Shown piece by piece: positions 19,615 through 51,883 of a stretch of 64,000 bases of DNA. Origin of the DNA: Haloprofundus halophilus (GTDB taxonomy: Archaea > Halobacteriota > Halobacteria > Halobacteriales > Haloferacaceae); NCBI RefSeq assembly GCF_003439925.1, contig NZ_QQRR01000002.1, positions 62,001 to 126,000 of the forward strand, read 5' to 3'. The stretch's first letter is position 1, and the number at the start of each line of letters is the position of its first letter. The position numbers and the translations under genes were made by a program. Under the pieces are notes generated by a model. That model saw nothing but the letters and a program-made list of their open reading frames with translations. It was not told the origin of the DNA and ran no database searches.

Positions 19615-19644
19615 GCGACGAAGTAGAGTGGTCCGATTGGTCGT

Positions 19645-19818
19645 CCGCTGACGCCACCTCCCTCCGCCGTTCGCCTCCCGCTGACGCCACCTCCCTCCGC
19701 GGTTCGTTTCCCGGTTCCCCGCTGACGCCGCCTCCCTCCGCGGTTCGCCCCGCTGACGCGCCTTCCATCCGCCGTTCGCCTCTCGGGTGTCCGCTGACGC
19801 CACTCCCCTCCATCTTAC
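19645..19818. repeat. Five imperfect tandem copies with alternating spacing
   Basis: Copies beginning CCGCTGACGCC at 19645, 19678, 19719, 19750 and 19791, most continuing with ACCTCCCTCCGcgGTTCG. Spacing alternates 33, 41, 31, 41 bp. It occupies the noncoding gap between the SIMPL gene and a small membrane-protein gene; no reading frame is preserved. Confidence 0.8.
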
Positions 19819-43518: not shown

Positions 43519-44145
43519 ATGCTCCACTACGTGACGACGAACGAGGGGAAAGTCGCGGAGGCGACGTCGTACCTCGGCGAGTCGGTCGGACAGGTCGACT
43601 TCGACTACACGGAGATTCAAAGCGACGACCTCGGGCGTATCGCGGCTCACGGCGCGCGCGAGGCGTACCGACAGGTGGGCGAACCCGTCCTCGTCGACGA
43701 CGCGGGGCTGTTCGTCGACGCCCTCGGTGGGTTTCCGGGTCCGTACTCCTCGTACGTCGAGGATACCGTCGGCATCGACCGCGTCTGGCGGTTGGGCGAA
43801 CAGGAGGAGAACCGGAAGGCGTCGTTCCGCTGCGTGCTCGCCTACTGCGACGGCGAACCGTTCGCGGCGTCGCCGGACCCGGTGGACCGAGACGACCGCG
43901 TCGCCGCCGCCGCGACGGGCGCGGAGCGAGACGCCGAGGAGACCGAACCTCTGCCCGTCAAACTGTTCGAGGGTGTCGTCCGCGGCCGGCTCGTCGCCCC
44001 GCGCGGCGAGGGCGGGTTCGGCTACGACCCCATCTTCGAGCACGACGGAAAGACGATGGCCGAGATGAGCACCGAGGAGAAAAACGCCATCTCGCATCGG
44101 GGGCGTGCGCTGGCGAAGTTCGGGGAGTGGTACGCCGAGCGATAG
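43519..44145 (+). CDS. rdgB: RdgB/HAM1 non-canonical purine NTP pyrophosphatase
   Basis: 208 residues. Family motifs: TTNEGKVAEA at the start, VDDAGLFVDALGGFPGPYSS, and GGFGYDPIF. It hydrolyses ITP/XTP/dITP, keeping deaminated bases out of DNA and RNA. An acidic insert of about 30 residues (near 118-145) is larger than in most homologs. The final codons form the first half of unit 1 of the hairpin array downstream. Confidence 0.92.
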   Translation: MLHYVTTNEGKVAEATSYLGESVGQVDFDYTEIQSDDLGRIAAHGAREAYRQVGEPVLVDDAGLFVDALGGFPGPYSSYVEDTVGIDRVWRLGEQEENRKASFRCVLAYCDGEPFAASPDPVDRDDRVAAAATGAERDAEETEPLPVKLFEGVVRGRLVAPRGEGGFGYDPIFEHDGKTMAEMSTEEKNAISHRGRALAKFGEWYAER

Positions 44146-44280
44146 CGAGGCGTGCCTCGGAGGGCTCTGTCCTCCGGCGGTTCGCTGAACGGTAGTGAAG
44201 CGAATCTCGAAAATCGAAGATTTTCGGCGGTACGCCGAGCGCTAGCGAAGCAAACCTCGTCGGGCGCGAAGCGTCCGACG
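44129..44280. repeat. Three 50-bp tandem units with covarying hairpins
   Basis: Units start at 44129, 44179 and 44229, each exactly 50 bp apart. The first 29-31 bases are conserved (GGTaCGCcGAgCGnTAGcGAaGC...CTCG); then a hairpin begins at the same column. The stems differ in sequence yet pair in every unit: 8 bp with loop TCT in unit 1, 8 bp with loop GAA in unit 2, 10 bp with loop GAA in unit 3. Two stems use one G-T wobble each. Unit 1 overlaps the rdgB stop. Confidence 0.85.
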
Positions 44281-44418
44281 TAGGTTCAAACGCGAACGAA
44301 TTGAGCGTTTGAATGTCTGAATCGATACATTATCTGAAAAAACACTGTTTAGATGCCTGTTCAAAACAGCTCTACTGTTTTCTATCACCGACTATCAAAC
44401 AGTCCCGACCACGGCCGC
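44281..44418. other. AT-rich convergent gap with ACTGTTT/AAACAGT half-sites
   Basis: Markedly AT-richer than its surroundings. After an inverted pair CAAACGC...GCGTTTG (44287-44311), ACTGTTT-type half-sites occur at about 44344, 44358 (partial), 44373 and, in reverse, 44364 and 44397. T-rich runs suggest bidirectional transcription termination between rdgB and the PIN gene. No gene is convincing here. Confidence 0.5.
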
Positions 44419-44916
44419 TTACGTCCGCGGGTCGCGGTCCGGACCCGGATACTCGCCGCCTTCGACTTCCCGATACAGACTCGCGGCGTCGAACAGCGTC
44501 GCGAACGCCTTCGGGTGGCGGACGCTCAGCGAGACGCGTTTCCGAAGCGTCGCGCCCGCCTGCGCCGTCTGGAGGCGCGGGTCGAGCGTCAGGAGGTGCA
44601 TCGCGCCGCCGTGGTACGCCGAACCCAGCGCCGGGTGGTCGCCGTCGGCGTGGTCGACCGGTTCGCGCAGCGTCTCGACTCTCTCGCGCCAGTCGGTCGC
44701 CAGTTCCGCGTCCGCCAGCGAGGTGACGACGGCCTCGGCGTCGTCCAACAGCGCGTCGCTGGCGACGAGCGTCGTCCACGAGTGCTCGCGGAGACAGTCG
44801 AGCGCTCGCCGGGAGTCGCCGCCGACGAGCAGGTCCGCCGCGAGCACGTCCGCGTCGGCGACGACGCGCGCGGGAGACGCCTCGGATCGCTCGGTCACTT
44901 CCGCGCGCTCAGTCAT
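44419..44916 (-). CDS. PIN-like protein, possible toxin-type partner
   Basis: 165 residues. ADADVLAADLLVGG resembles the PIN opening (D-x-D-x-L-x-x-D-L), followed by central helices and an acidic pocket DHADGDHPALG. Starts at 44916, overlapping by 8 bp the stop of a 32-residue upstream gene. PIN proteins are RNases; in such a pair the small partner may regulate or bind it. Confidence 0.62.
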   Translation of the reverse strand: MTERAEVTERSEASPARVVADADVLAADLLVGGDSRRALDCLREHSWTTLVASDALLDDAEAVVTSLADAELATDWRERVETLREPVDHADGDHPALGSAYHGGAMHLLTLDPRLQTAQAGATLRKRVSLSVRHPKAFATLFDAASLYREVEGGEYPGPDRDPRT

Positions 44917-48024: not shown

Positions 48025-48995
48025 GCGCGACGAAAGAAGCGACTGACCGCCTTCGCCTCGTCGCCGACGGCGTCTCTCACGGCTTCGACGGGAAGCCGGT
48101 CCTCGAAGACGTCTCGCTCACCGTTGAACCCGGCGAAGTGCTCGCCATCGTCGGCCCCTCCGGGACCGGAAAGACGACGCTGCTGCGACTCCTGGCGCTG
48201 TTCTCGCGGCCGAACGAGGGCCGAATCGCGCTCGACGACGCCCTCGGCGGAACCCACGGTGCGACCGACGGCGGCTCCGTCGCCACCGTTCGAGCGGACG
48301 GGCAGGCCGACGCATCGATGTCCGGGCAGGCCGACGCGTCGATGTCCGGGCAGGCCGACGCATCGATGTCCGGGCAGGCCGACGCATCGACGGACGGGCA
48401 CGCCGACTCCGACGCCCGCGACGCGTGGTCGCTGTCGGACGAAGAGCGTCTCGGACTCCGGCGACGCATCGGCCTGGTCGCGCAGGACCGGTCGCTGTTC
48501 TCGGCGTCGGTCGGCTACAACGCCGCCTACGGCCTCGAAGTCAGGCGGTCGCGGTCGGCCCGGCTCCGCGCCTCGCTCGCGCGGACGGTCGGCGTCTGGT
48601 CGCCGCCGGACGCCGCGCTCGACGCGCTCGACACCGTCGGCATGGCAGACATGGTCGACAAACACGCGGAGTCGCTCTCGTCCGGCGAAGCCCAGCGCGT
48701 CGGCGTCGCGCGGGCGGTCGCGGTCGACCCCGACGTGCTCCTGCTCGACGAACCGACCTCGAATCTCGACCCGCGGAACACCGCCGTCATCGAGGACGCC
48801 GTGCGCGAGGCCAAAGCGCGCGGTATCGGCGTCGCGCTCGCCACGCACGACATGGCGCAGGCGCGCCGCGTCGCCGACAAAACGGCGGTCGTTCTCGACG
48901 GGACGTGCATCGAACACGGGCCCACCGAGCGCGTGTTCGAGTCGCCGCGCGACGACCGCGCCCGCCAGTTCGTCGCGGGCGAACTCGTCTACTGA
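48021..48995 (+). CDS. tupC: Tungstate ABC transporter ATPase TupC
   Basis: 324 residues. Walker A GPSGTGKTT, signature LSSGEAQRVGVARA, Walker B VLLLDEPTSNLD, and the H-loop ATHD. Between Walker A and the Q-loop it has an unusual insertion with four copies of GQADASMS (residues 94-125) encoded by a 24-bp tandem repeat. The fold around it is intact. Co-transcribed with tupAB. Confidence 0.9.
   Translation: MSATKEATDRLRLVADGVSHGFDGKPVLEDVSLTVEPGEVLAIVGPSGTGKTTLLRLLALFSRPNEGRIALDDALGGTHGATDGGSVATVRADGQADASMSGQADASMSGQADASMSGQADASTDGHADSDARDAWSLSDEERLGLRRRIGLVAQDRSLFSASVGYNAAYGLEVRRSRSARLRASLARTVGVWSPPDAALDALDTVGMADMVDKHAESLSSGEAQRVGVARAVAVDPDVLLLDEPTSNLDPRNTAVIEDAVREAKARGIGVALATHDMAQARRVADKTAVVLDGTCIEHGPTERVFESPRDDRARQFVAGELVY
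48300..48395. repeat. 24-bp coding tandem repeat within tupC
   Basis: Four units at 48300, 48324, 48348 and 48372 of GGGCAGGCCGACGCATCGAT-GTCC, the last diverging (CGGAC at the end), followed by a partial fifth copy. In frame, adding eight residues per unit. Confidence 0.9.
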
Positions 48996-51701: not shown

Positions 51702-51764
51702 GCCTCTGTATACCGCGCTCCGCCTCAAAAAGCTACGTCCCGTCCGCGACTCGTCGTCGCTCGT

Positions 51765-51883
51765 GTCTCGTCGTCGCTTCCGTCTTGTCGTTGCTCCCGT
51801 CTCGTCGTCGCTTCCGTCTCGCTGCCGCTCCCGTCTCGCTACCGCTCCCGTCTCGTCGCCGTTTCGTCTCGCCCTTGTCGCTC
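51765..51883. repeat. 17-bp degenerate tandem repeats upstream of trkA
   Basis: About seven units (51765, 51782, 51799, 51816, 51833, 51850, 51866) of GTCTCGtcGtCGCTtCC, some with GCTGCC variants. They lie between the divergent promoter side of trkA and the next gene. The period matches the array on the other side of trkA but the sequence differs. Confidence 0.8.

Follow-up and report, generated by a model that had tools for sequence, protein, structure and literature searches.

Tandem hairpin repeats with compensatory changes at the 3' end of rdgB in Haloprofundus halophilus, and a recurrent hairpin tip in haloarchaeal intergenic DNA

How does a hairpin keep its pairing while the sequence of its arms drifts? 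The question is raised by a short tandem array at the 3' end of rdgB, found in a stretch of 64,000 nucleotides from Haloprofundus halophilus (hereafter the window). A sequence-only reading of this DNA had described three 50-bp units whose hairpin stems differ while pairing is retained. This observation was confirmed, and the structure is larger than first described. The three units are present at 44129-44286, with starts 50 and 50 nt apart, but the array goes on with a fourth A hairpin, giving the order A1-B1-A2-B2-A3-B3-A4 (Table 1). The units show 65-81% identity over 37 nt. In the leading part of each, which had been called mostly conserved, columns 1-28 fold as a hairpin of their own (A) ahead of the hairpin originally described (B).

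Each A hairpin consists of 8 bp, a tandem GA/GA mismatch and a 2-bp step, which in units 1-3 closes a GNTA loop. The A stem is fully paired in unit 1 (8/8) and in unit 2 (8/8, G-U included), and only 5/8 positions pair in unit 3. The B stems were as previously given, with 8, 8 and 10 pairs, 3-nt loops and a common start column; those of units 1 and 3 contain one G-U pair each. Unit 1 does start inside rdgB: A1 takes its 5' arm and tip from the last codons of the gene, TGG TAC GCC GAG CGA TAG (W-Y-A-E-R-stop), and the stop codon TAG lies within the A1 loop. The A2 hairpin would encode W/R-F-A-E-R-stop, resembling an rdgB end.

Table 1. Features of the rdgB 3' region (positions in the window).
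Feature	Position	Strand	Basis or remark
rdgB (Ham1/ITPase family) coding region	43519..44145	+	Pfam PF01725, E 1.9e-48; translation
Unit 1	44129..44178	+	sequence, unit alignment
Hairpin A1: GGTACGCC-GA-GC-GATA-GC-GA-GGCGTGCC	44129..44156	+	fold; covariation, 25 orthologues
Hairpin B1: CGGAGGGC-TCT-GTCCTCCG	44158..44176	+	sequence, fold, shuffling
Unit 2	44179..44228	+	sequence, unit alignment
Hairpin A2: GGTTCGCT-GA-AC-GGTA-GT-GA-AGCGAATC	44179..44206	+	fold; covariance model match, E 9e-12
Hairpin B2: CGAAAATC-GAA-GATTTTCG	44208..44226	+	stem recurs in 26/60 haloarchaeal genomes, control 0
Unit 3 (A3 + B3)	44229..44286	+	aligns with the sole unit of same-genus species G004
Hairpin A3: GGTACGCC-GA-GC-GCTA-GC-GA-AGCAAACC	44229..44256	+	three mismatches; chimeric arms; covariance model
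Hairpin B3: CGTCGGGCGC-GAA-GCGTCCGACG	44258..44280	+	contains GCGAAGC
Hairpin A4: TTCAAACGC-GA-AC-GAA-TT-GA-GCGTTTGAA	44285..44313	+	beyond the extent first described
TTTTC tract (in CGTTTTC)	44378..44382	+	conserved in 5/5 same-genus species; preceding array not conserved
DUF7384 gene, convergent neighbour of rdgB	44419..44916	-	Pfam PF24109, E 6.7e-77

Folding of the region was compared with shuffled sequence. The probability of a stem of at least 8 pairs with a 3-nt loop under base shuffling was 0.0048, 0.0011 and 0.0057 for the three right halves. The + strand folded at -85.5 kcal/mol, as compared with -61.5 +/- 3.9 for shuffles (z = -6.1), and the - strand gave z = -3.1. Background counts for this genome were drawn from 800 kb. 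Hairpins of 8 bp overall had loops of 3 and 4 nt alike (83 and 82), mildly above longer loops; since they show no general excess of 3-nt loops, the loop preference described below is specific to GA-capped tips. Hairpins centred on stop codons showed no general enrichment in the 800 kb. Rfam 15 recognized only two tRNAs above gathering score in the window and only tRNAs at the related loci, while with lax filters the array region gave a single sub-threshold match to a CRISPR repeat (E 0.41).

Three units alone cannot prove compensation, and an alignment of orthologues was therefore used. The 3' flanks of rdgB were read in 30 relatives, in more members of the family and in named GTDB haloarchaea, and 25 orthologous 3' ends, selected on the tip rather than the stem, were scored. 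In this set, 89.6% of cells were paired. Cells with a double change numbered 37, as compared with 14.8 +/- 2.9 after shuffling, and the covariation score was 0.421 against 0.220, with slid-partner controls at or below 0.131. Four variable pairs were then placed on an RdgB tree built without the hairpin codons: about 10/12 of the supported independent contrasts changed in the pairing direction as against about 0.1 in the other, the four columns sharing some of the species pairs. One near-identical pair of loci reads TTCGCT/AGCGAA in one member and TTTGCC/GGCAAA in the other. These results support compensatory change in excess of what relatedness and column composition would give, the structure being kept while its sequence changes. 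Structured homologues in related genomes, on which the sequence-only reading had made its claim depend, are thus present, with covariation above chance; the hairpin was absent from several of the rdgB orthologues examined.

Because one arm is coding, codon choice shifts with the untranslated arm, and in some species the residues shift as well (A to Q or H). Glutamate is encoded by GAG or GAA, always matched by GCGA or GTGA on the far side. Among six relatives the last residues of RdgB vary, with ends such as WYQTRTE, WYHERSG, WFQTRTE and WYQERSD. These C-terminal residues vary in step with the hairpin spanning the stop codon, so that the tail of RdgB appears to be written by the repeat.

The arms of the A hairpins are complementary and yet different between units and species, and the tip is short and invariant. 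In unit 1 the gene end itself supplies the 5' arm, of which the 3' arm is an inverted copy, and later units repeat gene-end-like sequence. At a further locus (L257) the coding end has an exact inverted copy of 10 bp around the stop codon, TTCCAGGAAC-GGTA-GTTCCTGGAA. Species of the same genus carry from one to about three units, with differing stems. One of them, G004, has one unit plus A4, as compared with three units plus A4 here, and because unit 3 and A4 of this genome align with the whole G004 array, two 50-bp units differ between the genomes. The 5' and 3' arms of hairpin A3 belong to different arm types, and the same chimera occurs in G004 and at L249; such chimeric arms suggest exchange within the tip. 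The B3 sequence is also found behind rdgB at two loci of another genus. Loci L061 and L073, from another genus, have several tandem copies of the rdgB end GGTACGCCGAGCGGTAG...GTGAGGCTGT downstream of the gene, which apparently arose by an independent amplification, and the other end of the L073 locus has GC-rich tandem repeats of about 37 bp.

Searches for the array elsewhere depended on what was used as the query. A DNA search of the genome with the whole array returned only the array itself at significant E, and otherwise weak partial matches. The 15-nt core pattern matched exactly only the three array units in this genome and, with one mismatch allowed, 21 sites as compared with 18 for the reversed control. 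The family is visible only by its tip and structure. The tip consists of GA, one GC or AC step, a GNA or GNNA loop, and GA; in the form GAACGNAGTGA it occurs 35 times in this genome, where its reversed control gives 0. Of the 60 Halobacteriales genomes searched, nearly all are enriched in it, above all behind tRNA genes. The A4 tip, GAACGAATTGA, is one base off this form. A covariance model, the search proposed from the sequence alone, also found further copies of the A hairpin, several of them directly behind tRNA genes.

Mismatches and loops were counted in data not fetched by the tip. The tandem GA/GA mismatch occurred in 25 hairpins of this genome, as compared with 0-8 for other dinucleotides, and in 46 at rdgB loci, as compared with at most 2. 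Loops were GNA in 12/19 cases in this genome and 15/21 at rdgB loci, and GNNA in 23/25 cases behind rdgB; loops of 5-8 were nearly absent at rdgB loci. Very stable DNA mini-hairpins have loops of these two classes, GNA and GNNA, and d(GCGAAGC) has a Tm of about 78 C (PMC4686876), although at rdgB a DNA-stability reading of GNTA is confounded, because the loop is partly forced by the TAG stop. Like the mini-hairpins cited in PMC4686876, the present tips have GNA or GNNA loops, here closed by GC/AC steps, and B3 contains the GCGAAGC sequence itself; those hairpins are synthetic oligonucleotides, whereas the present tip is GA/GA-capped and genomic. In the open-access literature searched, no description of the tip or the element was found, though an account may exist elsewhere, and the matches listed for the tip sequence were unrelated primers and genes only.

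The B hairpins are dispersed as well. The B2 stem also occurs inside other hairpin-pair repeats, and B loops are seen in both orientations (GAA and TTC). At seven loci carrying the CGAAAATC hairpin a two-hairpin repeat was observed, with variable stems and constant junctions (GTCGTTCG ... CGTGATCACG ... CGGACGAC); it is dispersed in several haloarchaea and is possibly PATE-like. The tip often lies near a recurring TTTTGGTCCAGCTTTTGCCGAG-like sequence, as at four loci of this genome and similar loci, which looks like another haloarchaeal intergenic repeat.

The enrichment behind tRNA genes was strongly one-sided. For 30 tRNA genes of this genome, 37 tips were present within 300 nt downstream and 2 upstream, with about 1 expected; near these tRNAs 20 tips were in sense and 17 in antisense orientation. 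A direct copy of the tRNA's own 3' end (at least 12 nt, mostly 22) was found behind 17/30 of the genes and an inverted copy (at least 9 nt) behind 10/30, and neither was found upstream. The direct copies lie 50-230 nt downstream, often with an inverted copy of the T-arm and a GA-capped hairpin in between; seven flanks of this genome and three from another family provide examples. In a genome from another family of the order the corresponding counts were 13, 9 and 7 of 30, the last two for direct and inverted copies, with 0 direct and 2 inverted copies upstream; of the tips in the tRNA flanks of the second genome, 11 were sense and 4 antisense. Both the rdgB array and the tRNA flanks contain the tip, and two further loci (L059 and L167) have the inner module AGTCGC...CCGTCTCG in common with the tRNA flanks. 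The tRNA copies might instead be scars of integration, and not the product of the process at the rdgB array.

The position of the array in the transcript can be read from what follows it. The conserved T-tract sits about 65 nt beyond the last hairpin and is likely to be the rdgB 3' end, as intergenic termination in H. volcanii uses a T stretch ending at a C (PMC7237163). Given this published signal, the conserved tract and the lack of a U-tract behind the units, the array hairpins most likely lie inside the rdgB 3' UTR. They resemble the 3'-end hairpins of Haloferax volcanii, which also lie in 3' UTRs with a T stretch ending in C downstream (PMC7237163), but here they stand in tandem, covary and precede the T tract by a long distance, the 3' end of this gene being putative.

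REP/BIME elements of the GTAG- and CGTC-tagged superfamilies (PMC3733652) are among the closest known systems, and the earlier suggestion of a mobile structured repeat fits in part, in that the array is REP-like. Both are short palindromes (5-13 bp stems in REPs) clustered at gene 3' ends; some REPs supply a stop codon, as A1 does for rdgB, and REP subfamilies have alternative complementary stem residues. The array differs in that its invariant part is the hairpin tip, with its GA/GA mismatch and GNA or GNNA loop, rather than a stem or foot, that its arms follow the end of the host gene, and that its host is an archaeon. None of the units has an unpaired GTAG or CGTC foot, GTAG occurring only in the A2 loop (where TAG is stop-like) and CGTC in the B3 stem, and no multi-copy family with a constant stem or loop was found in the genome, only the 35 copies of the tip being repeated. 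With these two defining features absent, the array was not filed as a REP. The PATEs and SMRs of Haloquadratum (PMC3119063) are likewise haloarchaeal, transposase-free and palindromic or bounded by inverted repeats. PATEs are heterogeneous in sequence, and SMRs, which insert into other mobile elements, are about 80-110 bp long, with terminal inverted repeats and >95% identity (PMC3119063). The array, in contrast, lies behind rdgB and is built of 50-bp modules whose stems vary from unit to unit; with 65-81% identity to unit 1 and no second locus, it was not assigned to the SMRs.

Short palindromes are abundant in haloarchaeal DNA, and chance palindromes in a GC-rich tandem duplication were considered as an account of the array; shuffling, the covariation of the 25 orthologues, which already refutes it, and the tree contrasts leave it a negligible probability. 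A series of bacterial-type intrinsic terminators, one of the original proposals, is very improbable. The hairpins are stable, GC-rich and right behind a stop codon between convergent genes, but no unit is followed by a U-tract (0 found directly after a hairpin of the array, 0.7 expected in shuffles), the conserved T-tract is reached only after the last hairpin, and the intergenic signal of H. volcanii is a T stretch (PMC7237163); the array was not classed as an intrinsic terminator. It is also rather unlikely that these are miniature mobile elements inserted at gene ends by a transposase supplied in trans, whether REP/RAYT-like or IS605-related like the Haloquadratum PATEs. The tip and the B stem are scattered across Halobacteriales, most genomes giving 0-2 control matches, which would fit such elements, as would a site at a gene end that supplies the stop codon, known from GTAG REPs (PMC3733652), and the presence of IS605-related PATEs and small mobile repeats in haloarchaea (PMC3119063). 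Yet copies that share tip and loop only, with arms belonging to the host gene, offer no common body for transposition; neither the three-unit array nor its 15-nt core occurs elsewhere in this genome, and the unpaired foot is missing.

A more serious contender, though we consider it doubtful, is a selected RNA structure in the 3' untranslated region of the rdgB mRNA, in which stacked hairpins would guard against 3'-to-5' decay or mark a processing site and pairing would be kept by compensatory point mutations. Strong covariation at an orthologous place argues for it, as do the better fold of the + strand and the T-tract that puts the hairpins within the 3' UTR. In H. volcanii, many 3' ends are preceded by hairpins (PMC7237163). 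The element also stays with rdgB in other genera where the downstream gene is codirectional, and mismatches lean weakly towards RNA, G-T exceeding A-C by 13 to 7 in one count and 36 to 26 in a second. Against it stand the nearly equal use of both strands by the tips near the tRNAs of this genome, the B loops in both orientations, the orthologues that lack the hairpin and loops that are GNTA rather than GNRA; RNA pairing also gives no account of the direct copies of tRNA 3' ends.

The reading we prefer, at about even odds, is that the array consists of haloarchaeal palindromic repeat modules of REP/BIME-like anatomy, grown at the 3' end of rdgB, whose pairing is kept by hairpin-templated copying and exchange between units. 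The anatomy was observed directly; the mechanism is drawn from comparison between species. The tip would fold in transiently single-stranded DNA, and copying across the hairpin, by template switching or conversion, would rewrite both arms together. Exchange between units would also rewrite arms, so that pairing could survive sequence drift, and slippage between 50-bp units would lead to their gain and loss. The array may then be tolerated, or used, as a 3' untranslated structure of the rdgB mRNA upstream of the T-tract terminator. This single process could account for arms of host sequence, a constant tip, paired change, turnover and the lack of a clear strand preference near the tRNAs of this genome. 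The tips in both orientations and the GNA and GNNA loops tilt the identity of the folding molecule towards DNA. Against hairpin copying stand the A tips behind rdgB, which are always in sense orientation, the slight excess of G-T over A-C mismatches, which maintenance at the RNA level predicts, and the absence of a general enrichment of stop-centred hairpins in the 800 kb.

A wider proposal is offered more tentatively than that for the array. Halobacteriales may harbour undescribed palindromic elements that lack a body of their own, each an invariant DNA mini-hairpin tip around which the 3' end of its host (rdgB or one of many tRNA genes) has repeatedly been copied, both inverted and direct, so that every element takes on the sequence of its host. 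The rdgB array would be one case, in which the last residues of the enzyme would also have been rewritten. If hairpin-templated copying of a gene end yields covariation, compensatory change alone is not proof of a functional RNA; because one arm is coding, the rdgB locus is a clean place to separate copying from selection on RNA. The tip enrichment and the copies of tRNA 3' ends bear on how gene ends, integration sites and intergenic DNA evolve in archaea. Elsewhere in the window, short tandem repeats are present at 19643-19811, 48299-48407 and 51750-51873, with periods of 72, 24 and 17/51.
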